The notes under the pieces: model-generated | What the model was told of the DNA's origin: nothing | The model's input: the letters and a program-made list of their open reading frames with translations, nothing else | Database searches by the model: none | Position numbers and translations under genes: made by a program | Source of the DNA: a virus | Direction: 5' to 3' (one strand) | Virus record (IMG/VR): IMGVR_UViG_3300036715_000143 | Location: 1 to 37,178 of that record | DNA length: 37,178 nucleotides | In this document: positions 12,238-29,774 of the stretch, in pieces | How positions within the stretch are numbered: position 1 is the stretch's first letter | How the letters are laid out: every line of letters begins with the position of its first letter

Positions 12238-15200
12238 ATGGCAAAAGCCCTCACACTACCAGATGGATCGTTGTTTCCTTTGCGTGAGGGAGAAGACCCT
12301 AACGTAGCTTTTGCAGAGGCCCAACGGCTGTACCCAAAAGCATTTGGTGCGGCAGAAACCCCCGAAGAAGGCCCCAAGTCGGGCTTCATGCCCTCGCTCA
12401 AAGGCGCAATTTCAGACGTCAAAGGCGCTGGCGCAGCACTCGCTGGCCGTACAGGCATCATGGGACTTCCCGAAGCCGAGAAGTACATTGCCGAGCAGGA
12501 AGCCTACAAGAAAAAAGTCTACGCCCCGACCACTGAGGGCTGGACTGAAGCACCGCTGACTAAGATCGGCGAGCTTGCTGGTGGCTCTCTGCCTTGGATG
12601 GCAGCTCCGCTTGCCGCTGGCGCTGCGGCACTTGCGCTTCCTGAAGCACTAGCTGCGGCCCCTATTTTGGGCGGTTTGACGACTGCGGGTACGGCACTTG
12701 GTTTGGGTGCCGCAGGCGCTGCTTCTGCGGGGCAGTTCACCGCTTCGAACTTGGTACGCCAAACCGAAGAAGGCAAGAAACTGGGCGATACTGACCTGAC
12801 CGCCGCTGCGCTGGCGTCCATCCCCCAAGCCGCGCTGGATACCGTGAGTATGCGTATGATCCCCGGCCTCGGCAAGATATTTGAGAAAGCAGGCGTTAAC
12901 CTGTCGGCCAAAGCCGCAAATGACTTGGCCAAGGAAGGCATCAAGAAAACGGCGGCTGATTACCTGCTATCCACCGGCAAGACGATGGGTATCGAGGGTC
13001 TGACCGAAGCAGGTCAACAGGTGTTTGAGCGTATGCAGGCCGGTCTGAACATCACAGACGCAAATGCCCGTGCAGAATATTTTGACAACTTCATCGGTGG
13101 CGCTGTCCTCGGCGGTATCTTGGCCCCTGCAGGCCGGTACGTTGAACGCGGTCAAGAGCAAACACGTTTCGATAAGGGTGAACGCACCAAGCAAGTCGAG
13201 GCACGCACCGCAGCATCGCAGGCCGCAGAGCAAGCCGCAGCCGTTGAAGAAGCCCAGAAGCAAACTCCCGAGTATGCGGTTCAGGCGCAGCAAGACTACC
13301 TAGCGGCAGAGCAGCGCAAGGTCGAGTTGGACGCGCAGATGCACCGAGCAGGCAAGGGCGTCAAGCTTACGGAAGACCAGAAGCAGGACAACCGCGAAAC
13401 CCAGAAAGCCCTTGCCGAGCACGCCGACGTACTGAAAGAAACCAACGCAGAGTTCCGCAAGTACCGCCGGTTCCTTCTTCCTGAGCCAACCCCCGCTCCT
13501 GCACCCATTGAAGACACAACGCAACTGCAGCAACCCTCATTGGTGCCCGAAGCAGCAGCGCCTGCTACACCTGACTTGGACATGTTTGGCCAGCCCGTGG
13601 AGCGTCAAGTTCCTGAAGCAGCAGTAGAACCGAAGGCAGACCCGCGCCAGCAAGTACGGATGTTGGAGCAACTGGTTCAGCAATATCAGTCTCAACTGCA
13701 AGACGCTAGCCCCCAAGAAATTGTAGATCTTGCGCCCAAGTACGCACAAGCCAATACCGCGCTGATGCAATCTCGTAAAGATGTTGAAGCGTTACCTAGG
13801 CCCGTTGAAGACCAAATTGCCAAACTGCAACAAAAACTAGGCGTAGCCAAAGACAGGGGCGATGTACCCGCCGCAGCCAAGTTGTCCCAAAGCATTCTTA
13901 ACTTGCAGCAGCAAGCGGTGCCTACGACCCAGCAGACCATTGAAATGCAGCCGTTCAAAGCAACGTCTGAAACTGCGGAAGAAATGGCCGCACGCAAAGC
14001 TAAAGATTTAGAAGACCAACGTCAAGGAGCGCAACAAGCTGCCAGAGCTGAGTCCGACGCATACGTTAACCAACAAATTCAAGAACGCCGCACACAACGA
14101 AAACTAACGGAAGCCAATACCCCCGCTGCGGAGCAGCCGCAACGGGATGAAGAACTGCGTCACCGAGCTGAGAAAGAAACGATTGATAAGCTCTTGGCCA
14201 CGTTTCCTACGGGTAGCGTAGTTACCCCCGGACAAATAATGTCGGGACTTGGCGGCGAACAGGCGCACTTACGTGACCTGCAAACGCAACTGGCCATTGC
14301 AAAAATTACGCGAAACGCGGAACTTGTTGGCTCGCTCAACGATCAGGTCGCAGACATTAAAGCAAGGCAGGAAGAAAACGCTGCGTCGGGTAAGCCAATA
14401 TATCGTTTGCCCGCTTTGGGTGAAGGTAAGTTGCCCGAATCACGCGCCCAAGAAGCTGAAGCAGAACAACACGCTGATAAACAAAGCGAGTTGCTGCAGG
14501 CGTTTGTTGGTCAATTGCAAAAAATTAAACTGCGTCCTGACACTGCCAACGTGTCTGCACGTCTGACAGACGTTAATAAAAAGCGCGAAGCCGCAGGCAA
14601 GCCGCCTATTACGCTGGCAGACCAGTCGTCCACGCTAATGGACACTGCAAGGATGGCGTATTTGAATAGTCATCTGGCGGAGATTGCGTCCCGTCGCGCT
14701 GCTTTTAATTTGCCCCCTATGGCGAAATGGGAGATTGGGGAATCCCGTGCAAGGGTCATGGAAGGTTTTAACGAACTGCAAAGTCGTTGGGGCCAAGCCA
14801 TCCCTAAAAATGCTCCCATAGGGCAGCGTCAGTTTGGTGCACCGGTAGGCGCTATTGCGGCACTGCAAGACCAAATGCGCACCAACATTTATACGAACGT
14901 GTCTTCCGCTGCCGAACGCATGTTGAAGGACACGCAAGGCACGATGAAAGAAAAGACCGTAACTCGGTCAGCCACACCTACGCTTGAGCGTGACGAAAAA
15001 GGACAACTGCGCCAAACAGACTACGCCCGTCCAACTGGCCCACAGCCTGTTACAGAAACTCTTAATCTGCGTGAACAGCCAAAACTGGCAGAAGACGACA
15101 AACAAAACACGTTGGACATGATTGACCAAGTGTTGAATACGCTTGATACACGCACTACTGCAATACCCACAAACACGGTTAAACCGCCAGAAAAAGTAAA

Positions 15201-18200
15201 AAGTTTTAGCGATATTGCACAGCTATTGGCTGAAGAAAAATCAGGGGTTACTACAGCAAAGACCAACGAGGCTTCTGTACAACTGCTGAACCAACTACGT
15301 GACGCACTGCCTAACACGTCTAACAAAGACTTCACGGCGCTGGCACGTGAGCAAGTGCAGCGCGTTATGGAGGGGAACTTACCAGACCAGTTTGCGGTAC
15401 GTGAACTGGGCGACATGATTAGGGTACAAGAGGAAGGCCGTCAAAGTGCCGCACAACCCGGCGCTACACCAGAAGACTTGCAAAGAACCAGCGCACAACA
15501 GCAACGGGCTCTTTTTCCAGAAGCTGAAGTCCAGACGTTGCGTGTCACGCCGGAAAATTTCCAGAAGATGCTGGATTCCAAAAACGTGCAAGGGATGCAA
15601 GAAACAATTGCGCAGCAAAAAGCTGACAATCAAACAGCTTTGCAAACGGTACGGGACAGCTTGCAACCTGCCAAGACCGCAGCCCAACAAGCCGAAGTCG
15701 CGCTTAAAAAGGCCAAAGAAAAAGCAGGGCCTTTGCTGGCAAGTGCGGACAAAGAGCGCGGTGAACCCGAGTGGTACGCGTCTGCGGTGCGTAAAGTTGT
15801 GGAGCTTGAAACCGCTTTGCAAAGTATCCCCGCACGCGTGACGTTGCTTAAAGATATTCGAGCACAAATGGCGGGGCTTAACGAAAGCCAGAAGAAAGAA
15901 CTGGTACAGCAAGTTGATCGCTTACTGGCAATTGCTGATAAAAACCCAGCGGAAAGAACCGCGCTTTTAGATCGTTTGAAAGAACAACAGAAAAAAGCAA
16001 AATACTTTTCAACAAGCCCCAACGCTACTTCGATTAAAAATATTAGCGACCACATGGGGTTGGTAGGAGAAAATTTAAACGCGGTGTTTTCCGCAAATAA
16101 AGTCAAAGAATTGCTTGAGCTTAAACAAGCGCTGGCGGGCAAAGCTTCTTTAACTAAAGAAATTAACCGCCTGACCGCCGCAGTACGTTTTGCTAAAAGC
16201 ACCGTTGACAAAGCACGCACTGACCTCAATGGTTTGGTTAATCAACACGTAGCCGACAGCACCGTACGTGAGTCTTTGTTGTCAGAAGCAAATAAAGCTA
16301 CAGAAAAAATTAACAGACTTACCAAAGCGTTTGAAGCAGCTCAACGCCAAGAATTGAAAGAACCGGCCAAACCTGTTGAAGAGGCTGTTACCAGCCAAGC
16401 CACTCCAATGGCCACATGGCGGACAGCATTGCAACGCGGGCGCGAGGGGATGGACTTGCCGGGTACTCGCGTAACGCAGGACGTATCCGAACTCAAGCAA
16501 CGCATTCTCGGCATCCGAAGCAAGCTGGGGTCGTTTGATGCCCAACTGGAAACGCTACAAGACCCGAAAAACAAGCTGACCGCCGAAGGTAAGGGAAAGA
16601 TTGCCGACCTTAAAACAAAACGTAGTCAGGCTGCTGTTGATCTAGAAGCGGTGTACGAAAACGCCCCGCGCATTACGACTGAGATCAAAGAACAAGGGCA
16701 GCTTGAGCTTGAAAAAGCTTTTGATGAAGCCCAAGCCGCAGGCTACGATTTGATTGCAAGAAAGCGCCAAGAGAAAGCTGGCGAAATCCCTGCGACCCTT
16801 GCCGCACCGAGGGCAGGCAGTGCAGTTGTTGATGTCCGTACTGGCCGAGTATCTGAGTCCGGTGAGCGCAAGCGTCCTTCTGACCGTGCAAAAGTTGCAC
16901 AAGAGGCGTTGAGCGAGTTGGCGGGCGCCCGTGCAGAACTGAAAGCTTTGCAAGACCGCATGCAGTATTTGCGCGACAACAACAAGGCAAAGAAAGGCAA
17001 CCGTTACACGGAGCTATTCAAGGGCTTGCAAGAGCAGGAAGCAGGACTCAAGGGAACCGTTGCCGACAAACAGGCCGTTGTTGCTGAAGTCACGAAGAGC
17101 CAGAAAGAAACCAACGCTGCAGTGGCGTCTGCACGAAAGAGCGTGGAAGAGGCGCAGTCCGGTAAAGATGCGCTGGCTCTCAAAGAAGCTGAAGAGCAGC
17201 GTCAGGCAGAGGCGTCTGGCCCAATCTTAGAAGGCGTTGAATTTTCTCGCGGTAAACCGACAAATGCGTCTACTGTTGAGAGCGTTACAGCCGAGCTTGC
17301 TGAAGCAGGCATTGTGATACCAAAAGAAAAAACGCACAGCGATAAAAAACCCGCAAAACTGACTGTGTTTAAGTCCGTTGACGACTTTACAAAAGCGTAC
17401 CCCACAACCAAAGGTAAGGTTCCGTCAGATGTTAAAGGGCTTGTGCACAAAGAACAAGCCTTCTTATTTGCGGACAACATCGGTAAGGGCGAGGCGCTCG
17501 GCGTTACGCTGCACGAAGTCGGAGCGCACATCGGTTTCCGTAACTTTTTTAATCCGGCGCAGTACAACGCTATTTCCACCACGGTTAAAAACTGGGCTAA
17601 ACGTAATGACGGTTCTATTGAGTCCAAAATTGGTAAAGCGGCGCTTGCCCGTGTAGAAGCTGCGGAAACTCCCGTTAACCAAGTAGACGACGAAATTATT
17701 GCGTACGCCGTAGAAGAAGCTATTAAGGCGGGTATCCAACCAACAGGTGCCGTTAACCGAACCGCCATACACAACTGGTTAAAAATGGTGGTCGATGCGT
17801 TTAAGAAAGCGCTCGCGGTATTTGATATAAATTCCTCGGGCCTTAAAGCGGGCGACCTAGTTAACTTTGCTTACGGTTGTGCCCAATTGGAATTGCAAGG
17901 CACATGGCACGGCTCAGACGCCAAGTTTACGGCGTTTGATACCAATTTTGCGGGGGAAGGTGAGGGGGCTTTTGACCGTCGCTTTGAACGCGAAAAATCG
18001 CTTGGTGTTGGGCCGTACGTAACCGCAGACAAAGACTACGCTGAGTATTACCAGACCGCAGTTACTTTTGGTAAAGCGTCCAACGCTACGGGTTATGGGG
18101 ATATGTCATACCAGCAGTTCCGTGACTTGGACGAGAAGTACATGTCTACCAGCGTTGGTGACTTGTCTTCCAAAGAAGTTCGTACAAGATACGAATCTAA

Positions 18201-21200
18201 TCTTTTAACACGCTACCTGCGCGGTGTGCAAGAAGGGGGTGCATTAAACCCAAAAGAAAATAAAGCGGCTGTCGAGTACATTGCCGACACCAAAAAACGT
18301 TTGGAAAGTGATATTGCCGATACCAAGCAACGTTTGGCTAAGTATTTGACGGGGCCTGTATCTAAAAAAACGGGGTTGCCTGCAGCATCTGTAGTATCAG
18401 GTAAAAATGCTGCGGCAGTAGTCAGGCTAGAAGCAAACTTGTATACCACGCAAGCACGTTTAGATGCGGTCAACACGCTTGATGTTTCAAAAATAAAAGG
18501 GCTCAAAGAGCGCCCCAAACAAGGCAACTTGTACCGCACATTGGACGACGTTCCTGAAGAACGTGTGTACAAAGTTAACTCTGATTTCATTGTCGGTGAT
18601 AGGCCAAAACTTGATGCTCTGTTTGAACAGTACGGGGACAGGTACGCTAAACAACGTGCTGAACAAGAAGGTAAGTACCCCGCCAACGGTTTATTTTTTG
18701 ACATACGGGAAAAACTTGGCGTTGACGAGGCAACGCGAGTTCTAAAAGCGGCAGGCATAGACGCCATTGAGCAAAATAATGAAGGTGGCGAATACGTTGA
18801 ACGTGCGTTCATTGGTGTTAAGCCTGAAATACTAGGCACTAATTTGCAACCTATTGGCCCTGCTGAAGGCCCGTTGTTTTCCCGCGTTGCTAAGTACAAG
18901 TCCGACGACGCTCTGTCCAAGTTGGCAGAACGTGCAGTTGCACAACCAAAGACCTTGCGTGAGAAGGCAGGCTCCAACATCGCGCTGCAGATCGAGATGC
19001 AGACCGCTGATATGCGTGCCGGTGTTATCAAGGCGCTGAACAACGCTGTTGAAGACCCGAACACTATGGGCAGCACACGGGACTTCCGTCAGGCTATCTT
19101 CAGCATTACCGCTGCAGATCAGCACGGCGCTATTACCCAGATGGCGCTCAGCAACGGGCCCCCCGAGATGTTCAAAGACTCCAAGGGCTACTACGAAGTT
19201 CGTAGCTCCATGAAGAACGATGCCGGTGCTATATTCGACGCCGTGCAGGACATCCCGGATAGTTACGGCAATACCGAAGCCAAAATGGGGTTAGCTTCTG
19301 CGTACATGATCGCCCAACGTGCGATGAACAAAGGCTTGAAGAAGCTTGACCTAGGCGCTCTCGGTGTTACCGAGCAAGAGTTGCAAGACGCTATGGCTGT
19401 GGCCAATTCCGACCCCAAGCTCAAGGCAGCGCTGGAGAATGCCCGCACCAAGTACAACGCCTACAACCGGGGCATGATTGAGTGGCTGTCCTCCCCACAG
19501 GTGGCAGCTATTACGCAGGCCGACGCCAAGGCGTACTTGAAGGATGAGGACTACGTTCCCTACTACCGCGTTCGTGCCGACGGCGTGGCTGAGTTGGTCT
19601 TTGGCGGTGAGAAGACGCTCACGATTGGCGACATAACGCATCAACCGTACCTTGCTGAACTCAAAGGCGGCGAGAGCAAGATCATGCCTTTGGACAAGTC
19701 GATCATGCGCAATACCATGCTGCTGGTCACTAAGGGCATGAACAACATGGCCATGAAGAACGTAGGCTACGCGATGCAAGCTGCAGGCCAAGGTCTTGGC
19801 TCCGTCGATAAGATGGGCAAGCCCACTAACCTAATGCCAATCCACAGCGGAAAAGCCCCTGCCGATGCCAGCGTTATCCGCTGGACGCAAGAGCCTGACC
19901 CTAACAAGTCTGAAGACAAGGGAGATCGCTGGCTGCGCGTTCAAACCACGGAAACAATGTTTGGCGGCGTTCCTGCGGAACTGATTATCAAGTCCTTGGA
20001 AGGCGCACACCTGACGCTGCCTGCGTTCCTGAAGTGGGGTGGCATCGCCGGTGATCTGTTGCGTTCTGGTGTCACTCGCACCCCCATCTACTTGGCCCGT
20101 CAATTGTTCCGCGACCCGTTCGCAGCTACGGCTACTTCCGGTCTGGACTACGGCCCGCTCACTGCCATCTTCAAGGCCAACAAGGAGTTCCTGAAGATTG
20201 CCACTGGCAAGAGCGAAGCCGGTGCCAAGATGGTTGAGAAGGGCTTGATGCAGTCCGGTTTGTTCGAGGGCGACCCGGCCAACATGTCCAAGATCGCGCT
20301 GCAGTTGGCCAGCGGCAAGTCTCAAGGCGTTCTTGACAAGCTGTTTGCTAAGGCCGATAAGCTGGCGCTACAGGCCGATGTCGCTACCCGTGCGCTGATC
20401 TACGAAAACGCTATTAAAAACGGCCTGTCTGAAGTCGAAGCCAGCCATTCAGTGCGGGAGTCGATGAACTTCTCCAAGCGCGGCCTCTCGCCTACCGTGC
20501 AGTACGCCAGCCGCATGATACCGTTCTTCAACGCGCAGATTCAGGGTTTGAGCGTACTGTTCAAAGCAGCCACGGGCAACATGCCGGCCAACGACGTGCT
20601 GAAGATCAAGCGCAAGTTCTTCAACAATGCCATGCTGTTGACCGGGTTCGGCATCGCCTACGCAATGGCTATGGACGACGACGATTACTACAAAAACGCC
20701 AAGCCTAAAGATCGGTACAGCAACTTCTTCTTACACCTTCCCGGTGTAGATGAGCCTATCAAGCTGCCTATCCCGTACGAGTTCGGCTTCTTCTTCTCGG
20801 CAGGCGTGGCTGCTGTTGACGCCATGAAAGGCGAGGTAGACACACCTCAACAACTTCGTGCGCTGAAAGACATGTTTGTGAGCGCTATCCCCGGTTCCAG
20901 CAACATGGGCATGCCTCAGATCATCAAGCCCATAGCCGAGGTATACGCCAACAAAAACTTCTACTCAGGCAACCCGTTGGTATCTGCCCGTTTAGAGAAG
21001 CTAGACCCTGTGGCGCAGTACAACTCCAACACCACTGAGCTGGCCAAGTTCATGGCCAAGATGGTTCCGGGCCTGTCCCCTATCCAGATCGAGCACATTG
21101 TGTCCGGTTACTTGGGGCAAATACCACTGATGGTGGTGGCTACTACCAACGAAATGTTCCGCGAAGGCAAGGCCGAGCCCACCCGCAAGCTGTCCGAGAT

Positions 21201-21576
21201 GCCGCTGATTGGCAGCTCGTTCCAGCGCAAGTACGGCGGTGAGGAAGCCGACGTTGTGTACAAGCTGGCCACGGATGCAATGGAAGCTAAGCGAACTTTC
21301 GACAACTACCGCAAGACCGGAAAGATCGAAGACGCCAAGGACTATTTGCGTGAGCACCGCGCTGAGATCGCAGTTGCGCCGATGGCGTTGCAGTATCAGA
21401 AGTTCATGGGAACGCTGCGTACGCAGGAAGACATAATCCGCAGTTCCAACGCGCCATCTGATGCCAAGGAAAAACGAATTGACACCTTGAACGCGCAACG
21501 TCAGCTACAGTCCGAGCGTTACCTGAAGGCCATCAGGCGGGTGGAAGAGGGCGCCGGTAGAACCACACCCCCATGA
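12238..21576 (+). CDS. Giant polyvalent virion protein: zincin-like peptidase plus ADP-ribosyltransferase plus LPD38-like C-terminus
   Basis: A 3112-aa protein. Residues about 118-165 form a long Ala/Gly/Leu hydrophobic stretch. About 300-1660 is K/E/Q-rich and helical. A zincin motif follows: His1759, Glu1760 and His1764 in LHEVGAHIGF, with a possible third ligand in DDEIIAYAVEE near Glu1819. At 1890 starts an ART-PolyVal-like domain: WHGSDAKFTAFD (His1891), GEGEGAF, GVGPYVTADKDYAEYY (Tyr1927), and a late KAAGIDAIEQNNEGGEYVE block. From about 2221 to the end it resembles LPD38-type regions (ARQLFRDPFAA, RMIPFFNAQIQGLS at about 2760) with a hydrophobic segment at about 2796-2812. Polyvalent proteins of this build are packaged and ejected into the host. 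Peptidase and ADP-ribosyltransferase activity are inferred from motifs only. Codon use is mosaic along the gene. Confidence 0.82.
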   Translation: MAKALTLPDGSLFPLREGEDPNVAFAEAQRLYPKAFGAAETPEEGPKSGFMPSLKGAISDVKGAGAALAGRTGIMGLPEAEKYIAEQEAYKKKVYAPTTEGWTEAPLTKIGELAGGSLPWMAAPLAAGAAALALPEALAAAPILGGLTTAGTALGLGAAGAASAGQFTASNLVRQTEEGKKLGDTDLTAAALASIPQAALDTVSMRMIPGLGKIFEKAGVNLSAKAANDLAKEGIKKTAADYLLSTGKTMGIEGLTEAGQQVFERMQAGLNITDANARAEYFDNFIGGAVLGGILAPAGRYVERGQEQTRFDKGERTKQVEARTAASQAAEQAAAVEEAQKQTPEYAVQAQQDYLAAEQRKVELDAQMHRAGKGVKLTEDQKQDNRETQKALAEHADVLKETNAEFRKYRRFLLPEPTPAPAPIEDTTQLQQPSLVPEAAAPATPDLDMFGQPVERQVPEAAVEPKADPRQQVRMLEQLVQQYQSQLQDASPQEIVDLAPKYAQANTALMQSRKDVEALPRPVEDQIAKLQQKLGVAKDRGDVPAAAKLSQSILNLQQQAVPTTQQTIEMQPFKATSETAEEMAARKAKDLEDQRQGAQQAARAESDAYVNQQIQERRTQRKLTEANTPAAEQPQRDEELRHRAEKETIDKLLATFPTGSVVTPGQIMSGLGGEQAHLRDLQTQLAIAKITRNAELVGSLNDQVADIKARQEENAASGKPIYRLPALGEGKLPESRAQEAEAEQHADKQSELLQAFVGQLQKIKLRPDTANVSARLTDVNKKREAAGKPPITLADQSSTLMDTARMAYLNSHLAEIASRRAAFNLPPMAKWEIGESRARVMEGFNELQSRWGQAIPKNAPIGQRQFGAPVGAIAALQDQMRTNIYTNVSSAAERMLKDTQGTMKEKTVTRSATPTLERDEKGQLRQTDYARPTGPQPVTETLNLREQPKLAEDDKQNTLDMIDQVLNTLDTRTTAIPTNTVKPPEKVKSFSDIAQLLAEEKSGVTTAKTNEASVQLLNQLRDALPNTSNKDFTALAREQVQRVMEGNLPDQFAVRELGDMIRVQEEGRQSAAQPGATPEDLQRTSAQQQRALFPEAEVQTLRVTPENFQKMLDSKNVQGMQETIAQQKADNQTALQTVRDSLQPAKTAAQQAEVALKKAKEKAGPLLASADKERGEPEWYASAVRKVVELETALQSIPARVTLLKDIRAQMAGLNESQKKELVQQVDRLLAIADKNPAERTALLDRLKEQQKKAKYFSTSPNATSIKNISDHMGLVGENLNAVFSANKVKELLELKQALAGKASLTKEINRLTAAVRFAKSTVDKARTDLNGLVNQHVADSTVRESLLSEANKATEKINRLTKAFEAAQRQELKEPAKPVEEAVTSQATPMATWRTALQRGREGMDLPGTRVTQDVSELKQRILGIRSKLGSFDAQLETLQDPKNKLTAEGKGKIADLKTKRSQAAVDLEAVYENAPRITTEIKEQGQLELEKAFDEAQAAGYDLIARKRQEKAGEIPATLAAPRAGSAVVDVRTGRVSESGERKRPSDRAKVAQEALSELAGARAELKALQDRMQYLRDNNKAKKGNRYTELFKGLQEQEAGLKGTVADKQAVVAEVTKSQKETNAAVASARKSVEEAQSGKDALALKEAEEQRQAEASGPILEGVEFSRGKPTNASTVESVTAELAEAGIVIPKEKTHSDKKPAKLTVFKSVDDFTKAYPTTKGKVPSDVKGLVHKEQAFLFADNIGKGEALGVTLHEVGAHIGFRNFFNPAQYNAISTTVKNWAKRNDGSIESKIGKAALARVEAAETPVNQVDDEIIAYAVEEAIKAGIQPTGAVNRTAIHNWLKMVVDAFKKALAVFDINSSGLKAGDLVNFAYGCAQLELQGTWHGSDAKFTAFDTNFAGEGEGAFDRRFEREKSLGVGPYVTADKDYAEYYQTAVTFGKASNATGYGDMSYQQFRDLDEKYMSTSVGDLSSKEVRTRYESNLLTRYLRGVQEGGALNPKENKAAVEYIADTKKRLESDIADTKQRLAKYLTGPVSKKTGLPAASVVSGKNAAAVVRLEANLYTTQARLDAVNTLDVSKIKGLKERPKQGNLYRTLDDVPEERVYKVNSDFIVGDRPKLDALFEQYGDRYAKQRAEQEGKYPANGLFFDIREKLGVDEATRVLKAAGIDAIEQNNEGGEYVERAFIGVKPEILGTNLQPIGPAEGPLFSRVAKYKSDDALSKLAERAVAQPKTLREKAGSNIALQIEMQTADMRAGVIKALNNAVEDPNTMGSTRDFRQAIFSITAADQHGAITQMALSNGPPEMFKDSKGYYEVRSSMKNDAGAIFDAVQDIPDSYGNTEAKMGLASAYMIAQRAMNKGLKKLDLGALGVTEQELQDAMAVANSDPKLKAALENARTKYNAYNRGMIEWLSSPQVAAITQADAKAYLKDEDYVPYYRVRADGVAELVFGGEKTLTIGDITHQPYLAELKGGESKIMPLDKSIMRNTMLLVTKGMNNMAMKNVGYAMQAAGQGLGSVDKMGKPTNLMPIHSGKAPADASVIRWTQEPDPNKSEDKGDRWLRVQTTETMFGGVPAELIIKSLEGAHLTLPAFLKWGGIAGDLLRSGVTRTPIYLARQLFRDPFAATATSGLDYGPLTAIFKANKEFLKIATGKSEAGAKMVEKGLMQSGLFEGDPANMSKIALQLASGKSQGVLDKLFAKADKLALQADVATRALIYENAIKNGLSEVEASHSVRESMNFSKRGLSPTVQYASRMIPFFNAQIQGLSVLFKAATGNMPANDVLKIKRKFFNNAMLLTGFGIAYAMAMDDDDYYKNAKPKDRYSNFFLHLPGVDEPIKLPIPYEFGFFFSAGVAAVDAMKGEVDTPQQLRALKDMFVSAIPGSSNMGMPQIIKPIAEVYANKNFYSGNPLVSARLEKLDPVAQYNSNTTELAKFMAKMVPGLSPIQIEHIVSGYLGQIPLMVVATTNEMFREGKAEPTRKLSEMPLIGSSFQRKYGGEEADVVYKLATDAMEAKRTFDNYRKTGKIEDAKDYLREHRAEIAVAPMALQYQKFMGTLRTQEDIIRSSNAPSDAKEKRIDTLNAQRQLQSERYLKAIRRVEEGAGRTTPP

Positions 21577-21736
21577 GCCCCCTACGGATGCCCACCTTAG
21601 CGTGGGCATCGAACATGTGCAGGAAGACAGCTTTTTTAAGGCCGTCTTCCTTTACTGCTTCGGGGTCTAGGCAGGGGACAAAGAATCCCTGCCCCCGTTC
21701 CAGCTCAGTCCACGGATAGCGAACTACCAAGCTCAT
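21533..21736 (-). CDS. Small conserved phage protein, end of minus-strand operon
   Basis: A 67-aa protein (VVRYPWTELERGQGFFVPCL, then DAHAKVGIRRG and MGVWFYRR). The pattern 'W-x-x-x-x-x-G-x-x-FFVPCLD' followed by a basic tail recalls small conserved phage proteins of unknown role. The start lies 32 bases inside the 3' end of the primase gene, and the last 44 bases overlap the 3' end of the giant gene in convergent orientation. Coherent sequence, overlap with the primase and the family-like motif support a real gene. Two inverted repeats lie within it. Confidence 0.65.
   Translation of the reverse strand: MSLVVRYPWTELERGQGFFVPCLDPEAVKEDGLKKAVFLHMFDAHAKVGIRRGLMGVWFYRRPLPPA
21587..21610. other. 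Perfect 9-bp stem hairpin at the convergent junction
   Basis: gatgcccac (21587-21595) and gtgggcatc (21602-21610) flank a 6-base loop. It lies 11 bases beyond the giant gene stop and inside the antisense 67-aa gene. There is no T run on either strand, so classic intrinsic termination is doubtful. It could stop or protect the plus-strand transcript. Confidence 0.5.
21622..21650 (+). terminator. Possible intrinsic terminator for the late operon
   Basis: ggaagac (21622-21628) pairs with gtcttcc (21644-21650), extended after one mismatch by GC pairs, with a T6 run inside the loop. On the plus strand it is followed by only a short T run (ttt). It sits 45 bases after the end of the giant gene, where late transcription should stop, but it is also coding for the antisense 67-aa protein, so chance is possible. 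Confidence 0.35.
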
Positions 21737-24659
21737 CGGTTTCAGTCAATGGGCGTGTGATACGGATAGCCGTCACTCGCATTTGGGGGCCGTTGGTCTT
21801 GGACATCAGGTCTTTGCGGGCCACGTACGACACCTTCATCTGGGGGTGAATCTCAAGCTGCTTCTTAAAGTCCGTGTAACCGAAGCTCATGCTTGAGCAG
21901 AACGTGCGTAGCACGCGCTCTTCGATGTACATGTCCGAGCAGCCGGGGGTCAGGCCGTTCTCGATACGCCCGTGCACCGCAGACTTCGTAGTGTTCCTGT
22001 CGATCACAGCGCCGTCACCCATCTGGGACAGGATGCCTCCGGCAGCGCCGTAGTTGACGATGACGAAGTGCCCGTAGCCCTCACGCACAAACGCGTTTAG
22101 TACATCCTCAGCGCTGCGCTTGTTGCTGTTCATAGCCTTGCGCATGACATTGATACGCCGACCAAACGCCGCGATCATCTCGGGCATGGGGAAGTCGGCA
22201 ATCTCTGCGTTGTTGTTGCTGAACAATATACCGGCAGCGATGGAAGCGCCCACACCCGCCATCCAGAAACGCTCGTCATTGGTAGCTTCGTACGAGGTGT
22301 ACATCTGGCGCACTACATCGGGCACCGTCTCGGCGATCTTGTCGAAGTTGTCCACCATGTACTGCGCAAAAATATCGCCAGCTACGCCGTAGTTCTGTGC
22401 CAAGGACTTGATGATCTCAATCTCGTATGGCTCCCATACCAACTGGGTGTCCATATCAAATTCAATGACCCGGCGAATCTCGCCTTCCGATGCGTGCTTG
22501 CGGGTACCGAGCAGCGTGTCCACCACGTAGGTGTTCGATGACATCAGTGCGTTCGACATCCATGTGGAGTTGTTCAGGCGCTCTTTGTTGGTGCCTGCCT
22601 CCATACGCTCCTTGCCCCGGCCCTCAGTCATATCCAGTAGGAACTCGGTGAACCACTCAGGGGACGCACGGTTCTTACTGGTAATCTCGTCCGTAATCAA
22701 GGGCAGGCTGTTGAGCATACCCAGACGCTGCTGCATGGCCACGGGGGATGAACTCTTGCCAATGCGGTAGTGCACCGGGTGGCCCCAGATGGATGCCGCG
22801 CCTTCTAGCGCCAGCGACTTGCCTGTGCCTGAGTACGTTGAAGCGCAGTGGAACGTCATGCCGTAGATGCCGGTGAACTTCATCAGCGGTGCGCCAGCGC
22901 CAACCAAGATAATCGCTAGTTGGTCGTACATCTTCTTCTGGATTAGCAGGTTAATCACATTGCGCCAGCCCTGTATGGTGCCGGTGGGTTTCGTGTTGTT
23001 CACGATGTTCTCCAGCCCGACCATAGGTATTTCTACCGGCTTCACCTTGGGTGCGTATATCTTGCCTGCGTACACAAAGGTGTTGTCCTTCTGCCAGCCG
23101 TAGCTTGCAGGTACTTTGACGGGTAATTTTTCAGTGCTCATTTTTTCTACACTCGCTCGTATGTAATCGTAAAAGTTCTTGTCGTTGCCGCCGCCAAAAG
23201 CAGCCAGCACGTTCTGGGTAGCTAGGTACTTCACCGTGTCGTCCTTGCTCACGCAGCTCTTCTGGGGCAACAGAATATTCTGGGCACCCTCTGGACGCAG
23301 CGCCAGCATGTGGACGGTGTGCTCGCCAGCGTTGTCTAGGATATTGAGGGGGAACACATCGTAGCTAATCAGCATCGTCAGCTTCTTAGACTCCGTGCCA
23401 TCCTCGTTCTCCATGCGCTTCTCGATGTACACGCCGCCGTTGCGTCCATACGCATAACCAAACGGCGCTTCGGGGCGCAGTATCTTGCGGAATGTGTCTG
23501 TCCCTGCGGACTCGACTTCTACTTCCTTCGCTTCAGTAACGACAGCCGTATCACGCCCCAGCGCTAGCGGGTTTGTGATCTTTCCCCAGTGCTTGCAGCT
23601 AACGCAAACGCCGGGGTTCTCCGAGTCGAACTTGGTGCACGGGTACGGGCCTTTGATCTCGGCCAGCTTGGAGTGCATCCGGTTCTCGTCGTAAGGGTGC
23701 AGGCCACTCAGCCAGATAACTGCACGCTCACCATCATCACACTTCTGAGCAATGCTCAGCAGCCCACGCCACAACGGCTCCATCCCATCGTCGCTGGCAT
23801 TCAGGGCGTAGAACTCTAACTGGCCGCAGCCGTTACCCTTCTTGGTTGCCTTGTAGATATTGCCGAATTTCGTGACGCTGTTCGCAAATAACTGCACAGC
23901 CGATGTCGTCGGCGCACTCTTAGGCCGCTGTCCGGGTAGCATGAGGGCCATGCTCGGCTTAGCCTTCACTTCGTATGCGGTGCCTGCCAAGTTGGTTTCA
24001 AGTACAGCGCGGATGTCATCAATGTCGAAGAAGCCCCCGCCGTGCATGAAACGTACCTTGGTTTCGCCGCGCACACGCTTGCCGCCCTTGACCCCGGTAT
24101 TAAGCGTTGCTGGCACACGTAGCACCCGCGCTGCATCACCTGTCACTGTGGGGTCGATGCCGAGCTTCTTCTGCACGCATAGGCGCTTGAACGCTTCTGC
24201 CACAGGCTTCCACTCCGCGATCTCCACCGCCTCACGCAGCGGCCAGTATGCGTGCACACCGCCGCCAGATGCCACCATCCACGGCTCACCTAGCCCAGCC
24301 AGCCCGACCTCTGTGGAGAAGTCCAGAATAGCCTGCGCTGCCATACGCGCTGATGGGTACGCCTTGGGTTTGAACTCGCCGTGCTCGTCCGGCACGTCCT
24401 TCGGGTGGTTGCAGTCGATGTCGATAGCGATGCACTTTGCCATCTGGGTATTGGTGGCTTGGCGGTTATCCGCGTCCCCGTAGGTACTCAGCCCAAAGTA
24501 AACATCAAAGTTCGACTTCTTCCATCGCTCTACTGCAACCTGCGCCTCTTCCAATGTGTCCACATATACGTGTTCCTTCTTCTTCGTCAGCTCTGCCACG
24601 CAATAGCGCCCGTTACCGGGAGGTGGCAAAACCGCCGCTAGAAAATCAAGCGGTTCCAT
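21705..24659 (-). CDS. Bifunctional AEP primase / DUF927-type helicase
   Basis: A 984-aa protein. The N-terminal archaeo-eukaryotic primase-like domain shows the metal motif AIDID (Asp80, Asp82), the SGGGVHAYWPL block (Ser131-Leu141, His136) and a third-motif region DPTVTGDAARVLRVPATLN (from Asp169). A Cys cluster follows (Cys341, Cys352, Cys355, in CTKFDSENPGVCVSC), likely zinc-binding. From about 390 a DUF927-like helicase region leads to a Walker A STYSGTGKS (607-615) and a Walker B LPLITDE (652-658, Asp657-Glu658). It would make primers and unwind DNA at the phage fork. Such primase-helicase fusions are frequent in phages and plasmids. It pairs with the polymerase and SSB-like protein upstream in the same operon. 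Confidence 0.88.
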   Translation of the reverse strand: MEPLDFLAAVLPPPGNGRYCVAELTKKKEHVYVDTLEEAQVAVERWKKSNFDVYFGLSTYGDADNRQATNTQMAKCIAIDIDCNHPKDVPDEHGEFKPKAYPSARMAAQAILDFSTEVGLAGLGEPWMVASGGGVHAYWPLREAVEIAEWKPVAEAFKRLCVQKKLGIDPTVTGDAARVLRVPATLNTGVKGGKRVRGETKVRFMHGGGFFDIDDIRAVLETNLAGTAYEVKAKPSMALMLPGQRPKSAPTTSAVQLFANSVTKFGNIYKATKKGNGCGQLEFYALNASDDGMEPLWRGLLSIAQKCDDGERAVIWLSGLHPYDENRMHSKLAEIKGPYPCTKFDSENPGVCVSCKHWGKITNPLALGRDTAVVTEAKEVEVESAGTDTFRKILRPEAPFGYAYGRNGGVYIEKRMENEDGTESKKLTMLISYDVFPLNILDNAGEHTVHMLALRPEGAQNILLPQKSCVSKDDTVKYLATQNVLAAFGGGNDKNFYDYIRASVEKMSTEKLPVKVPASYGWQKDNTFVYAGKIYAPKVKPVEIPMVGLENIVNNTKPTGTIQGWRNVINLLIQKKMYDQLAIILVGAGAPLMKFTGIYGMTFHCASTYSGTGKSLALEGAASIWGHPVHYRIGKSSSPVAMQQRLGMLNSLPLITDEITSKNRASPEWFTEFLLDMTEGRGKERMEAGTNKERLNNSTWMSNALMSSNTYVVDTLLGTRKHASEGEIRRVIEFDMDTQLVWEPYEIEIIKSLAQNYGVAGDIFAQYMVDNFDKIAETVPDVVRQMYTSYEATNDERFWMAGVGASIAAGILFSNNNAEIADFPMPEMIAAFGRRINVMRKAMNSNKRSAEDVLNAFVREGYGHFVIVNYGAAGGILSQMGDGAVIDRNTTKSAVHGRIENGLTPGCSDMYIEERVLRTFCSSMSFGYTDFKKQLEIHPQMKVSYVARKDLMSKTNGPQMRVTAIRITRPLTETDELGSSLSVD

Positions 24660-24671
24660 AGGTACCCTAGG

Positions 24672-24794
24672 TTATTGTGTTTCGGCGTCTACGAGTGCGG
24701 CGAAGCGCTTGACGAGTTCGTCTACCCATTCAGGGGGCAGCTCTCCTGCAGCGTGAAGCGTTGCGTAGTGCGCCAGTTCCTCGTCGGTAAGCAT
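24672..24794 (-). CDS. Tiny acidic protein (40 aa) before the primase
   Basis: ATG 24794 to TAA 24672-24674 gives MLTDEELAHYATLHAAGELP and then EWVDELVKRFAALVDAETQ. It lies in the otherwise empty 143 bases between the HTH gene and the primase, on the same strand, eight bases after the HTH stop. It is helical and acidic with no known motif. It is called real because it fills the gap exactly and has protein-like composition; no function can be given. Confidence 0.6.
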   Translation of the reverse strand: MLTDEELAHYATLHAAGELPPEWVDELVKRFAALVDAETQ

Positions 24795-24802
24795 CCGTGG
24801 AC

Positions 24803-25081
24803 TCACGGAGTTAAGTTGTATTCTTTGCATATTTTTCTCCAAGCTTCGTCCGCCGTCTTGGACGAGGACATTATTGTTAGTAGCAGTTCGACACGGTTCT
24901 GGTAAGCAACGAAAACGTCCTTGCCCTCAAACCAGTTGTAGACCGTCTGGCGCGTAACACCCAGAGCGATAGCAATCTTCGTCACGGGGAAGTCCAAGTG
25001 AATGGCCCATCGCCCGAGCTTGTTGCCCATCGTCTTAGGTGACGCCGCAACAGCGTCCATGATTTTTTGTGAGTAGGCCAT
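24803..25081 (-). CDS. Small HTH DNA-binding protein
   Basis: A 92-aa protein from ATG 25081; a GTG at 25102 would add seven residues, and neither has a clear ribosome site. Residues about 32-52 (PVTKIAIALGVTRQTVYNWF) are a clear helix-turn-helix of the kind in XRE-like or YdaS-like repressors. The rest is helical (AYQNRVELLLTIM, ADEAWRKICKEY). It lies just after the longest non-coding stretch of the minus-strand block, so it may regulate a promoter there and control replication genes. That is inference. Confidence 0.8.
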   Translation of the reverse strand: MAYSQKIMDAVAASPKTMGNKLGRWAIHLDFPVTKIAIALGVTRQTVYNWFEGKDVFVAYQNRVELLLTIMSSSKTADEAWRKICKEYNLTP

Positions 25082-25221
25082 AGTGTTAAGGCGCTGGGAC
25101 ACGCAGGGCAGGAAACGCAGTCATAGGTATGTGAAGGCCTTTTAACGAGGAGTAAAAACACATTTAAAAAAACCCCCCGACCTATGCAATGCGACCGCTG
25201 CCTGCGGCCCAGCGAAACTAA
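25082..25221 (-). promoter_or_regulatory. 140-bp non-coding region, possible promoter/operator for HTH-primase operon
   Basis: This is the largest gap in the minus-strand block, between the SSB-like gene and the HTH gene. On the minus strand it contains a GC-rich imperfect hairpin (ccgcaggcagcgg near 25191-25205), then G6 and T7 (about 25165-25178). Further on, an inverted repeat pairs acctatg (25180-25186) with cataggt (25122-25128), an operator-like pair. No convincing -35/-10 pair was found. A terminator for the SSB-like gene plus a new promoter is a plausible reading, not shown. Confidence 0.4.
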
Positions 25222-26226
25222 TTACTCGTCGTCCCAGTCAGACACGATGTCTGCGAGGCTTGCCTTGGTTGCAGGAACTGCAGTAGCCTTGGATGGGGCC
25301 TTGCGTACCTCGGGCTCAGGAGCCGTGTCTTCTTCCTCTTCGACCACGGGTGCGGGAGTGAATTTAGGCTTCTTGGGGGGCTTGGCTACCGCCAAACGTG
25401 CGGCCACTTCCTCGTCATCTTCCTCCGGTGCAGGCGCTGGGATAGCCTTTACTGGGGGCTTACCGGCGATAGCCAGAGGTGCCGCCTTCACGCCGTCTGT
25501 CTGCGCTGCATTCATCACGATAGCCTTCTTGGCATCATCGCTATCGGCTTGGTCTTGAATGACTTCGTACTCGTCGTCCGTCAACCAACGGGTTGGAGCA
25601 AAGTGCAGCCTGGGGGACTCCGACTTCGTGTCGAACTTCATGCGGGTCACGATCTGCTCGGGGTTGATCGGTGGGTTCTGCGCAGCCAAGTAACGGGCGA
25701 AGGACTGCAGCGGATGCTTGTCGCCATCTGCCTTGCCGAAGATCGACGTAGCGGGCAACACCATCTGCATGACGGAACCGCCCATGTCGTTCTCAAGCAC
25801 CACAGCCAGACGCTGCTGGTAGCGGCAGGCGCGGCTATTACCCGTACCGGAACCGGCTTGGTTCTGTGGGCACGACAGGCAAGTCTCGGACTGCTTGTTC
25901 TTAGCGGAAGGGTCAGGACGCTCGCCATCGTTGGAGGAGCAATCAGGCGCTGCGGCTGTAGCATCCTTGTCGTACGCAGCAGCGTAGAACTGACGGCCCA
26001 CTTTGGGTGCTGCCTTGACGATGATGATGTCGAGGTGACGGTCTTCAATGGCGGCAACTTCCTTGCCGTTATCCATCAGACGGAACACGCCGCCCTTGAT
26101 CGAGATACGCTTACCGGCAGCGCCGCCGGAGCTACCGCCCGTCAGGGCCATTGCCGTCTCGGACAGCACGTTGTTGCGAGCGAACGCAGGTACGTTCGAG
26201 GGGTTAAATAAGGAAACTTTGCTCAT
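25222..26226 (-). CDS. Putative single-stranded-DNA-binding protein with four-Cys site and acidic tail
   Basis: A 334-aa protein from ATG 26226, chosen over 26268 because of a GAGG site upstream. The first about 215 residues are a compact domain: RISIKGGVFRLMDNGKEVA, then EDRHLDIIIVKAAPKVGRQF, then a four-Cys set (Cys96, Cys116, Cys119, Cys134) in APDC, TCLSCP and ACRYQQR, and RLAVVLENDMGG and LPATSIFGK. From about 240 it is Pro/Lys/Glu-rich and disordered, ending in IVSDWDDE. An acidic, aromatic C-terminal tip is typical of SSBs that recruit partners. The zinc-like loop recalls T4 gp32 in principle, not in sequence. I know this pattern from uncharacterised phage proteins, so the SSB role is inference from tail, domain and neighbours. 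Confidence 0.65.
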   Translation of the reverse strand: MSKVSLFNPSNVPAFARNNVLSETAMALTGGSSGGAAGKRISIKGGVFRLMDNGKEVAAIEDRHLDIIIVKAAPKVGRQFYAAAYDKDATAAAPDCSSNDGERPDPSAKNKQSETCLSCPQNQAGSGTGNSRACRYQQRLAVVLENDMGGSVMQMVLPATSIFGKADGDKHPLQSFARYLAAQNPPINPEQIVTRMKFDTKSESPRLHFAPTRWLTDDEYEVIQDQADSDDAKKAIVMNAAQTDGVKAAPLAIAGKPPVKAIPAPAPEEDDEEVAARLAVAKPPKKPKFTPAPVVEEEEDTAPEPEVRKAPSKATAVPATKASLADIVSDWDDE

Positions 26227-26236
26227 GGTATGCGCC

Positions 26237-26641
26237 TCAATTGGAAGGTTTAGTAACGCGGATTTCAAAATCCGAAAATGCGTTCAGGCCGGGTGGCACT
26301 GAACCGGGGTTGTCCGCTAAGAACTGCGCCATGTTGGTTTGGGCAATTCGTTTCTCCAGCAGATCAACGGCATGGTTCTCGACAACGAAGTCTTTGAACG
26401 CGTCCCAGTCCTGCGTGGAGTAGCGGGTTTTCTGCACCATCGACACAGTGCCGAAGGCGGTGTTAACAGACTTGACGCCCAGCGCCTTCATCTGGTCTTT
26501 CATAGCAAACTTCAGGGTGTCTTGCTTTGCTTTCAACGTCTCGACCTTGGTGTCATATTCCTTGGTCAACTCGTCAATCTCTGCCTTTATCTTTCGGTAG
26601 ACGCGGGCTAATTTGTCCATTGGTATCGTGGCTTCAGTCAT
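26237..26641 (-). CDS. Conserved-type phage protein with N-terminal coiled coil
   Basis: A 134-aa protein; ATG 26641 has AAAAAGGAGAAATC upstream. Residues 10-52 form a coiled coil (ARVYRKIKAEIDELTKEYDT). The second half (TAFGTVSMVQKTRYSTQDWD, then LLEKRIAQTNMAQFL and VPPGLNAF) follows a pattern I recall from many phage replication loci, with W-D and 'EKRI' blocks conserved. It was never given a firm function as far as I know. It lies between helicase and SSB-like genes, 10 bases before the latter, so a recombination or nuclease-inhibitor role is possible. Confidence 0.72.
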   Translation of the reverse strand: MTEATIPMDKLARVYRKIKAEIDELTKEYDTKVETLKAKQDTLKFAMKDQMKALGVKSVNTAFGTVSMVQKTRYSTQDWDAFKDFVVENHAVDLLEKRIAQTNMAQFLADNPGSVPPGLNAFSDFEIRVTKPSN

Positions 26642-26711
26642 TTTGATTTCTCCTTTTTGTGTCTAGTGTTTGACAAGTGTAGCGTGGTTTTTGCGGTCTG
26701 TGGCTCCTTTC
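26642..26711 (-). other. 70-bp spacer between helicase and coiled-coil genes
   Basis: It holds a strong ribosome site (aaaaaggaga) for the downstream gene. A palindrome ttcttaagaa spans the helicase stop region at 26709-26718. A minus-strand TACACT resembles a -10 box but lacks a convincing -35 partner. No gene fits here. Confidence 0.35.
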
Positions 26712-28271
26712 TTAAGAATTTATTTCTGTCTCAAACATCTGAGTCAGAGTAAAGTTATCCACAACCTTTGTGGATAAAGCTGTGAACATCTTCTTTTCTA
26801 CGGGGCTGCTCTCGATGTGGATAACTGTTACTTTGTCGGAGTTCTGACCCTTGCGATCTGCCCGTGCGATGCACTGAATATATTGCTCGACCGACATCAG
26901 TGGCCCGTAAAACACCACCGTATCGGCTGCGGTCAGCGTGATCCCGTGCGCCGAAGCCTGTGGCTGCATCACCAACACGCGGGGGTCTTGCTCGTTCTGG
27001 AAGCGCCGGATTGTATCGGCACGTTTGTTCGGGGTGATGCCACCGTGGATCAGCTCTACGTTGAAGCCTTTCTTGGTCAGGTGGTTGTAGATGCTGTCGA
27101 TACTGCTGCGGAACATGGCGAAGATTAACACCTTGCGGTCGGTCTCTTCCAAGATTTCTTCCAACACGGATAGCCGGGGGCCAGCATCGAACTCCACCAC
27201 ATCTTTGTCGTCTGTATACACAGCGCCGCAACTTATCTGCAACAGCTTGCTCAAGCCCGAGGCGGCGTTGACAGCGGTGATCGTTTCGCCTGCCGCTTGG
27301 ATCGACATGCGCTCCTTGAGCGTGTGGTAATACTTCGCTTGCTGCACCGTCATGGGCACCAAACGGGTCGTGGTGAGCACTGGCGGCAAGTCCAAGCACT
27401 GGGCCTTGGTAAAGCGTATCGCAGGTTGTAGCGCCTCGTGTACGAGCTGTGGGGCCGCAGGCTTTGCCGCCCACTTGAACATCGTGACCTTGTGCATCAC
27501 CTTGTCGCGCCACGCCGTAAAGAACCGGGGGATGCCGTTGGGGTTAACCAGCTTGGCCAAGCCGTACGCATCCGCCGGAGACTGCGATGCAGGTGTGCCG
27601 GTCATCATCCACAGCCGTGTCTCAGGTGTCAGGATGCTGGCCAGCGCCTTGAAGCGCTTAGTCGTGGGGGTCTTGTACGCATTGGCTTCGTCAACGATCA
27701 CCAGATCGAAACGGCCATCGTTGCGCACCTCGTTGGCGATCAGGTTCAAGCCGTCGTAGTTGGCGATGACGAACTCGAAGTCCTGCTGCACCATCTCGAT
27801 ACGGCGACTAGCCTGCGCATGGTGCGCTACAACGGCAGACCTGTGGATGACGCTGCTGCTCAAGTCCCCTAACCAAGCGCTCTGCATGATTGAGAGCGGG
27901 CAGAGGATCAGAACCCTACGCACCTTCTTGATACTCATCAGGTAGTCAGCCGCCCACAAAGCGCTCAACGTCTTGCCTGTACCCGGCTCGCTGAACACAA
28001 ATGCTCTGCGGTGAATGGTCAGGAAATCTGCTGTCGCCATCTGGTGCGACATGGGTGTGTAGCGCCCCGGCCAACCGTACCGGCCCGTAATAGGCGAAGG
28101 TACATCTTTGACACCTAAGTTTCGTAGTACCTGAACCTCTTCCAACCCCCAGTAAACCATTATCTCAAACGTCCCATTATCTTCTGACACGATATGACGT
28201 TTGGGGATTAAATGGTACTTGTCGGGGTTTCTGGTTTTGAAGAGTAGTGCTTTGTTGTCGATGACTTGCAT
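26712..28271 (-). CDS. SNF2/SF2-type DNA helicase
   Basis: A 519-aa protein. Motifs are in order: a Q-motif-like region YTPMSHQMATADF (71-83), Walker A SEPGTGKT (94-101), motif Ia VLILCPLS, Walker B VIVDEAN (191-197), motif III MTGTPA (223-228), motif IV VLIFAMFRSS (381-390), motif V ASAHGITLTAAD (439-450) and motif VI QCIARADRKGQ (466-476). The motif order and the R-x-x-R-K-G-Q ending are SNF2-like. Small single-domain SNF2 proteins are common in phages and remodel forks or drive strand exchange. It stands directly with HNH and Cas4-like nucleases, so a helicase-nuclease recombination unit is plausible. Confidence 0.88.
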   Translation of the reverse strand: MQVIDNKALLFKTRNPDKYHLIPKRHIVSEDNGTFEIMVYWGLEEVQVLRNLGVKDVPSPITGRYGWPGRYTPMSHQMATADFLTIHRRAFVFSEPGTGKTLSALWAADYLMSIKKVRRVLILCPLSIMQSAWLGDLSSSVIHRSAVVAHHAQASRRIEMVQQDFEFVIANYDGLNLIANEVRNDGRFDLVIVDEANAYKTPTTKRFKALASILTPETRLWMMTGTPASQSPADAYGLAKLVNPNGIPRFFTAWRDKVMHKVTMFKWAAKPAAPQLVHEALQPAIRFTKAQCLDLPPVLTTTRLVPMTVQQAKYYHTLKERMSIQAAGETITAVNAASGLSKLLQISCGAVYTDDKDVVEFDAGPRLSVLEEILEETDRKVLIFAMFRSSIDSIYNHLTKKGFNVELIHGGITPNKRADTIRRFQNEQDPRVLVMQPQASAHGITLTAADTVVFYGPLMSVEQYIQCIARADRKGQNSDKVTVIHIESSPVEKKMFTALSTKVVDNFTLTQMFETEINS

Positions 28272-28286
28272 TTGCTTCTCGTGTTT

Positions 28287-28547
28287 TTATTTAATGCTGT
28301 GGTCGCTTTTTCTAGCGTACGACCTGTTGGCTGCTGCAGTCTTGACTTGCAGGTTACTGCGTGTCGTTGTGCCGCCCTTGCTGAGCGCCTTCTTGTGATC
28401 GACATCTTTGCCGTCACCCTTGTGCACCAGACCTTCTTTCTCCATGATGGCGCGGGCTTGGTTGCGTGCAGCACGTTTCTTTTTAACTGCGGGCTTCTGA
28501 TCGTACGCGGGGTAGGCTGCGCGATCTGCTGGGTTTTTGTAAGGCAT
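28287..28547 (-). CDS. Small HNH endonuclease
   Basis: An 86-aa protein from ATG 28547 with AAAGGAACAGTC upstream; the longer reading from 28664 overlaps the nuclease gene and is rejected. The beta-beta-alpha metal motif is visible: DVDHKKALSKGG (Asp50, His51), SNLQV (Asn65) and a last Asn74 in AAANRSYARK. The N-terminus is basic (KKKRAARNQARAIM). Small HNH proteins of this form act as nicking or packaging endonucleases in phages. Its place between the SNF2 helicase and the Cas4-like nuclease suits DNA processing; a homing role cannot be excluded. Confidence 0.8.
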   Translation of the reverse strand: MPYKNPADRAAYPAYDQKPAVKKKRAARNQARAIMEKEGLVHKGDGKDVDHKKALSKGGTTTRSNLQVKTAAANRSYARKSDHSIK

Positions 28548-28557
28548 GACTGTTCCT

Positions 28558-29220
28558 TTAATGTTTAGGATGGTGTACACAAGTGGTGACGGGGCACCAC
28601 GGGCAAAGGGGTGAGGCTTTCGGGTTCCACACGCCCGTCTCATGCGCTTGTTCGATACGGGCAATACGCTTGCGGTATGACCACCACTCGCCTTCAGCCT
28701 GATCGACTCCCACGCTGATCTTGACCATATCGTTTTTCACGACAAAGAGCAAGGCGGCGTTCACCTTACGGATGTGCGGGAAGTGCGCGAACACCATGAT
28801 AGCCATGAGCTTGAGCTGTTCACGATCCGGGTACTTGTTGTTGCCCGTCTTGTAGTCCACCACCCACGCCGTCAGGTTGTCGTCGTCCATGATGATAAGG
28901 TCAGCGATACCGCGAACCCACACCTCTGGCCCCACCCAACCGCATGGCTGCAGGTCAGTCGTCAACGCCATCTGGTACTCGACTAGCTTGCGACCGGGCT
29001 TGGCCTTGAGCGCGTCGAGCGTGCCTGCGATGAAGTCAAACTGCTTGGGCAAGGGCTTGCCCTCACCGATGTAATCCTCGGCTGCTTTATGCAGCTCTGT
29101 TCCGTACATCGTTGCCTGCGTCTCCGTGAACTTGTGCTTCTTCAGTACCCGCACCTCGTGGTACTTCTTGGGGCAGGACTCGTAATCCTTCAGCGCTGAG
29201 TGAGACCAAACTACTTTCAT
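28558..29220 (-). CDS. Cas4/RecB-like PD-(D/E)XK exonuclease with four conserved-type Cys
   Basis: A 220-aa protein from ATG 29220 (AGGAAAAAG upstream); a longer start at 29295 lies in the preceding gene's frame. It has the RecB-family GxxxH element YGTELHKAAEDY (His44), the core RGIADLIIMDD (Asp107) and VVDYKTG (Asp122, Lys124), and Gln135. Four Cys bracket it: Cys16 in YESCPKKY and Cys206, Cys209, Cys214 in CPWCPVTTC. That is the arrangement of a 4Fe-4S cluster in Cas4 and AddB-type nucleases. It probably resects phage or host DNA ends together with the neighbouring helicase. There is no CRISPR array in the window, so no adaptation role is implied. Confidence 0.88.
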   Translation of the reverse strand: MKVVWSHSALKDYESCPKKYHEVRVLKKHKFTETQATMYGTELHKAAEDYIGEGKPLPKQFDFIAGTLDALKAKPGRKLVEYQMALTTDLQPCGWVGPEVWVRGIADLIIMDDDNLTAWVVDYKTGNNKYPDREQLKLMAIMVFAHFPHIRKVNAALLFVVKNDMVKISVGVDQAEGEWWSYRKRIARIEQAHETGVWNPKASPLCPWCPVTTCVHHPKH

Positions 29221-29452
29221 CTTTTTCCTGCTTTCTTTTCTTTGCAGCAGCGCTGCAATCGTGGCAAATAATCTTACGTAGCGTACCGAACCCAAAAGGC
29301 CGTGTGACCTTCACATCGTCTTTTTTCTTCCCTTGCTGGCATGTCCAGCAGATGTATGTTTGGCGGCTGTACAGTTCTTTGTTATCAAGGTTTATTGCAG
29401 CTCGTTTTATGTTTAGCAACCCAAACTTGCCGTACTGACCCGTACCTTGCAT
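29087..29452 (-). CDS. Zinc-ribbon protein whose frame runs 134 bases into the nuclease gene
   Basis: ATG 29452 follows GAGG and is coupled to the upstream stop (TGATATG). Residues 1-75 look real: QGTGQYGKFGLLNIKRAAIN, then a four-Cys pair CWTC (35-38) and CHDC (63-66) with a basic tail AAAKKRKQEK. Beyond about residue 78 the frame continues to TGA at 29087 in a different phase inside the Cas4-like gene, and there the composition looks like a shadow of that gene. The functional protein may be nearer 80 aa, with the extension lost in relatives or made by a frameshift. Function is unknown; four-Cys sites usually bind zinc and nucleic acid. Confidence 0.6.
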   Translation of the reverse strand: MQGTGQYGKFGLLNIKRAAINLDNKELYSRQTYICWTCQQGKKKDDVKVTRPFGFGTLRKIICHDCSAAAKKRKQEKDESSLVSLSAEGLRVLPQEVPRGAGTEEAQVHGDAGNDVRNRAA

Positions 29453-29453
29453 A

Positions 29454-29774
29454 TCAAAACCTCGCAGAGTCAATGGCTGCGGACAGCCGGTTAGCGAACT
29501 CCGTAACGAATCGCTCGTCACGGTTCAGTGTGTGCCGTCCCATGTCCTCAAGGATGGCGTGTGTCACCTCGTGCCAGAACGTGTCACGAATCTCTGCACC
29601 GGCAAGGAAGCGCCCGGTGTTGTTGTGCTTCGCGGCGATCTGGATATTGCGGTCGGCGTAGCGTGTACGACCTACGCAGTTCTTCTCGATCATGGCCTCA
29701 ACGACCTCGACTGAATACAGCTTCTTACCTACGCGCATCCTACGTGGGAACATCGCTTTTATTTTTGCCATCAT
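29454..29774 (-). CDS. Small HExxH protein, SprT-like/zincin-like
   Basis: A 106-aa protein starting at ATG 29774 (ggtaaggagaagtaa upstream) directly after the polymerase stop (taaATG). It has FWHEVTHAILEDMG with His68, Glu69 and His72, and Glu92 in DERFVTEFANRL as a possible third ligand. This is a minimal zincin core such as in SprT-like and short phage metalloproteins. Whether it is an active protease is unclear. Its lock-step position with DNA polymerase suggests a DNA-linked role, as SprT/Spartan proteins clear DNA-protein crosslinks, but that link is speculative. Confidence 0.72.
   Translation of the reverse strand: MMAKIKAMFPRRMRVGKKLYSVEVVEAMIEKNCVGRTRYADRNIQIAAKHNNTGRFLAGAEIRDTFWHEVTHAILEDMGRHTLNRDERFVTEFANRLSAAIDSARF

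Follow-up and report, generated by a model that had tools for sequence, protein, structure and literature searches.

What would a peptidase and an ADP-ribosyltransferase (ART) be doing side by side in the middle of one giant phage protein? This question is raised by a virus record of 37,178 bases (the window, analysed over its whole length), which carries an open reading frame of 3112 residues (Table 1). The preliminary description of this DNA had called the product an LPD38-type protein with an HExxH peptidase and an ART-PolyVal-like domain inside it. Its size and LPD38 assignment are borne out by the ORF and by the Pfam match, and the C-terminal part of the protein also matches phrog_18222 (3e-36). 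LPD38 is a phage-only polyvalent domain (Iyer et al. 2017, PMC5512222), and with LPD38, a zincin-like and an ART-like domain in one large polypeptide the protein belongs to the polyvalent proteins. The zincin and ART domains themselves stay below threshold in Pfam, PHROGs and PDB sequence searches of the window protein. A genome-contig search gave no relatives, and there is no close match among named phages. The window matches the locus L004 (1-17731), from the 58 kb contig IMGVR_UViG_3300035180_000124, over 17.7 kb at 100% identity; on this ground, the two are the same phage and L004 is the longer record. Downstream of the giant gene, the minus strand at 21705-31784 carries convergent replication genes for a DUF927 primase/helicase, a helicase, an exonuclease and a DNA polymerase.

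Table 1. Features of the giant gene and its exchange cassette (window coordinates; residues of the 3112-aa protein in brackets).
Feature	Position	Strand	Basis
3112-aa polyvalent protein gene	12238..21576	+	open ORF; LPD38; phrog_18222
Exchange cassette, zincin + ART (aa ~1662-2219)	17223..18894	+	blastn; non-homologous to close relatives' cassette
HExxxH zincin-like domain (aa ~1687-1881)	17296..17880	+	A12 invariance; homology to Z2 zincins
Zincin residues: putative zinc ligands His1759, His1764, probably Glu1819; base Glu1760	17512, 17527, 17692; 17515		
ART domain (aa 1887-2196)	17896..18825	+	alignments A3/A8; hhalign chain; AlphaFold2; BFVD match E 7e-6
ART residues His1891, Tyr1927, Glu2188; helical insert ~1950-2090 (~140 aa)	17908, 18016, 18799		
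LFSR junction motif, cassette/chassis border (aa 2213-2216)	18874..18885	+	counted by eye
LPD38 domain, part of conserved chassis (aa 2815-2991)	20680..21210	+	Pfam PF18857 E 2.4e-27

The peptidase motif reads HEVGAH, with the spacing HExxxH. His1759, Glu1760 and His1764 are placed as first described, but HExxH has no occurrence anywhere in the 3112 residues. An HExxxH arises in 1.2% of shuffles of the protein. Alignment A12 holds 20 relatives that share 24-83% identity with the window domain; all three motif residues (H, E, H) are invariant in it, as is Glu1819, which sits in a DDE[IL][IL]AY helix. The motif together with a Glu in a second helix is what defines the HEXXXH clade of zincins, and these putative active site residues are the ligand set expected of an HExxxH zincin. 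The window group aligns with the sister HExxGHxG zincins (Z2) at 97.6% and E 5e-12 by hhalign, whose values throughout are pairwise and not database-calibrated, and Z2 zincins reach Pfam Zincin_1 at E 0.0096. The Pfam profile MPTase-PolyVal (PF18818) gives no match to the window protein at E 10, and the structure model of the zincin part is of moderate quality with no PDB match. We infer a zincin fold for this domain from its homology. An HExxxH site is also present in the LPD38 protein of five of the six cultured LPD38 phages examined.

A comparison of the window with the related loci L016/L149 (blastn) reveals a sharp break around the two domains. Their alignment spans ~9.2 kb to >31 kb of the window at 71-85% DNA identity, with short gaps elsewhere. 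The flanks stop at 17222 and restart at 18895 (identity 76% left, 84-85% right), and past 13.6 kb the stretch between is the only part of the giant gene left unaligned. In its place L016/L149 carry 646 bases with another zincin and no ART. The break points of L150 are 17213/18889 (left flank 77%, right flank 84%), and the right border at 18888-18895 is common to L153, L154 and L164. In close relatives both flanks are 75-85% identical and the cassette between them is unrelated. L002 and L003 show the converse: identity in the cassette is 86% and 76%, and left of it the chassis has diverged far more. As read from these alignments, cassettes are exchanged as a unit by recombination at fixed borders. 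The span 17230-18870 first proposed for the two domains nearly equals this cassette, which is not visible from the window sequence alone. No report of cassette exchange at the LPD38 slot was found in the literature searched, of which coverage was partial.

A scan with the LPD38 chassis gave 470 related loci. Only the best 80 were taken further, and the 68 of them with enough upstream sequence were dereplicated to 45 cassettes, a sample biased to close chassis. Within this sample from the best 80 of 470 loci, a zincin is found in 45/45 cassettes and an ART in 8/45. The zincins are of three types, HExxGHxG in 19 cassettes, HExxHAA in 17 and HEVGxH in nine (for the cluster with L172, itself truncated, the zincin was assigned from its siblings). 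At the level of sequence, these counts show the peptidase to be the standing component in the relatives sampled and the ART to be optional cargo. The idea that the HEVGxH-type zincin of the window occurs only ever with an ART is ruled out by L065-L079, which have the zincin without an ART. In the chassis relative L214 the same slot holds another zincin and, after it, an ART-PolyVal domain (E 2.4e-28, well over the Pfam cut-off). In L072 and L198 the same zincin stands upstream of the chassis with no ART and with a cargo of ~170 aa, which runs from MSRRTFLRGAV and is weakly TAT-signal-like. L173, of related chassis, has a HEGTHAAV zincin far upstream, and ~850 aa of cargo of no assigned kind come before its chassis.

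On balance we favour a reading in which the zincin-ART cassette fills a cargo slot directly ahead of the LPD38 chassis in a podovirus ejection-type polyvalent protein, where the zincin would act in processing and the ART would modify the host. A P22 gp10-like tail stabilisation protein and a DNA-ejection-like protein are encoded upstream in the window, and in phage JC1 the LPD38 protein gp69 (4515 aa) was detected with 51 unique peptides in CsCl-purified virions (PMC9144972). By analogy, we infer that the 3112-aa protein is an internal virion protein, probably injected; gene position and the relative found in virions suggest that it would be packaged and enter the host with the DNA. The HExxxH zincin would cut the polypeptide, probably at cargo junctions, at maturation or after entry. 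The ART, freed or tethered, would ADP-ribosylate host components early via NAD+, as its fold family suggests. Most likely, then, the zincin serves the injected protein as its standing processing protease, and the ART is an optional cargo that modifies host proteins; an anti-defence or takeover role would fit the latter. Iyer et al. 2017 (PMC5512222) put forward the MPTase as the enzyme that processes polyvalent proteins. The N4 vRNAP, though, has an MPTase and is packaged uncleaved (PMC5512222), so self-processing does not hold throughout. It is also listed as possible by Iyer et al. 2017 (PMC5512222) that such a zincin acts as a host-directed effector, here one that would cleave defence or regulatory proteins and work with the ART, and the exchange of zincin and ART together in the window cassette agrees with this. 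We consider an effector role unlikely and favour processing because every cassette examined has a zincin of one of three types, whether or not an ART accompanies it, whereas an effector would be expected to disappear from some lineages, as the ART has. A constant protease with variable cargo fits the processing of an injected polyprotein.

Where would such a processing protease cut? The junction between cassette and chassis has [FYL]-(S/A)-R/K in most of the 45 cassettes, with any zincin type (counted by eye). At the left cassette edge, 31/50 proteins from the zincin searches have an FSR motif; in the window it reads EFSRG (aa ~1669) and lies at ~17240-17256. Over LPD38 proteins as a whole, [FLIMVYA][FLYA]SR is in modest excess (58 observed, 33 expected), and its interest lies solely in its position at the cassette edges. 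The hydrophobic-(S/A)-Arg junction is thus a possible processing site. More tentatively, the LPD38 slot could be a protease slot, dedicated and exchangeable, in which any zincin type would cut the conserved junction and free the adjacent cargo, so that effectors such as the ART could be swapped and release kept; we hold this to be possible but rather doubtful.

His1891 and Tyr1927 of the ART-like domain lie exactly where they were first noted, as does its GIDAIEQ block (at 2173). His1891, Tyr1927 and Glu2188 are invariant in all 13 aligned close sequences, the others being 49-87% identical to the window. The Pfam profile ART-PolyVal (PF18760) matches at E 0.008 with 11.7 bits, missing its cut-off of 31.2. 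A chain of pairwise hhalign comparisons connects the window group (A3) with the group B ARTs (A4; 99.3%, E 2e-20) and A4 with the classical ART-PolyVal-like group A6 (99.8%, E 1e-27), whose members match PF18760 at 1e-6 to 3e-6, just under its cut-off; over the H...Y block, A3 also aligns with A6 without an intermediate (E 3.7e-6). In an AlphaFold2 model of the ART alone (pLDDT 86.4, pTM 0.76) the three residues lie on separate beta strands. By Foldseek this model matches predicted phage 'ART-PolyVal-like' proteins in BFVD (E 7e-6, probability 1.00) with low TM-scores, and among solved structures in the PDB neither the zincin nor the ART model gave more than helical noise. The low TM-scores and the absent PDB match of the ART probably arise because the ~140-aa helical insert dominates. 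An ART fold is thus predicted. In the H-Y-D triad of ART-PolyVal, H1891 and Y1927 have their counterparts and the acid is Glu2188, the strand-5 residue that aligns with the Asp (YVDF) of group B. Since it does so, the window ART looks like an H-Y-E variant, a divergent polyvalent-type ART with Glu2188 as the putative last catalytic residue.

The evidence therefore supports the proposal that this polyvalent LPD38 protein contains a zincin and an ART, with a corrected motif (HExxxH) and a corrected acid (Glu2188). Profile chain and predicted structure (pLDDT 86) sustain the ART-PolyVal-like assignment, but the Pfam cut-off and H-Y-D do not. The missing strand-5 Asp, the weak Pfam score and the large helical insert would all suit an ART-like domain without catalysis, serving as a binding or structural module. 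We judge this quite improbable in view of the invariance of H1891, Y1927 and E2188, and a Glu at the last catalytic step is used by other ART clades. One example is T4 Alt, with an R-S-E active site (PMC5512222). The lack of matches at default Pfam thresholds might suggest that the zincin and ART motifs arose by chance in a virion protein that is long and mostly helical; this is very improbable and already largely refuted by conservation, profile chain and structure match.

The pairing itself is less unusual than the preliminary description held: Iyer et al. 2017 (PMC5512222) describe HEXXXH metallopeptidases and H-Y-D ARTs as well as fusions of the two, L214 has the pair in the same slot, and the peptidase-ART pairing is already known as a class. 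The HEXXXH MPTase polyvalent proteins (PMC5512222) share with the window an HExxxH with a downstream Glu in a large LPD-bearing phage protein. The window zincin goes undetected by the MPTase-PolyVal profile, and its fixed-border swapping between sister phages is not described in the available text of that source. Compared with ART-PolyVal, whose prototype is the vRNAP ART of Roseovarius Plymouth podovirus 1 (PMC5512222), the window ART has the HG...GEG...G-x-Y, G-x-[LM]-Y, L-x3-GI and strand-5 blocks in the same order, but stays under the Pfam cut-off, has Glu2188 for the strand-5 Asp and bears the insert. JC1 gp69 (Bcep22-like, DarB-like) is likewise a giant LPD38 protein at the end of a virion module and found in virions; its domain table lists LT-like, YtxK, COG4646, HepA and LPD3 and no ART (PMC9144972). 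T4 Alt works in a similar way, as a packaged ART that is injected with DNA and modifies host RNA polymerase (PMC5512222), but is a standalone protein of the R-S-E clade. What is added here is a sharply bounded exchange cassette with a zincin slot that is filled in every cassette sampled, together with an apparent H-Y-E ART variant.

Polyvalent proteins are a known class with almost no experimental tests. With the border motif, the older proposal of self-processing can be put to a direct test. Moreover, sister phages with ~76-85% identical flanks carry a protease plus ART, a different protease by itself, or a protease of a third kind. These natural cassette variants are ready comparisons for the targets of the protease and the role of the ART.
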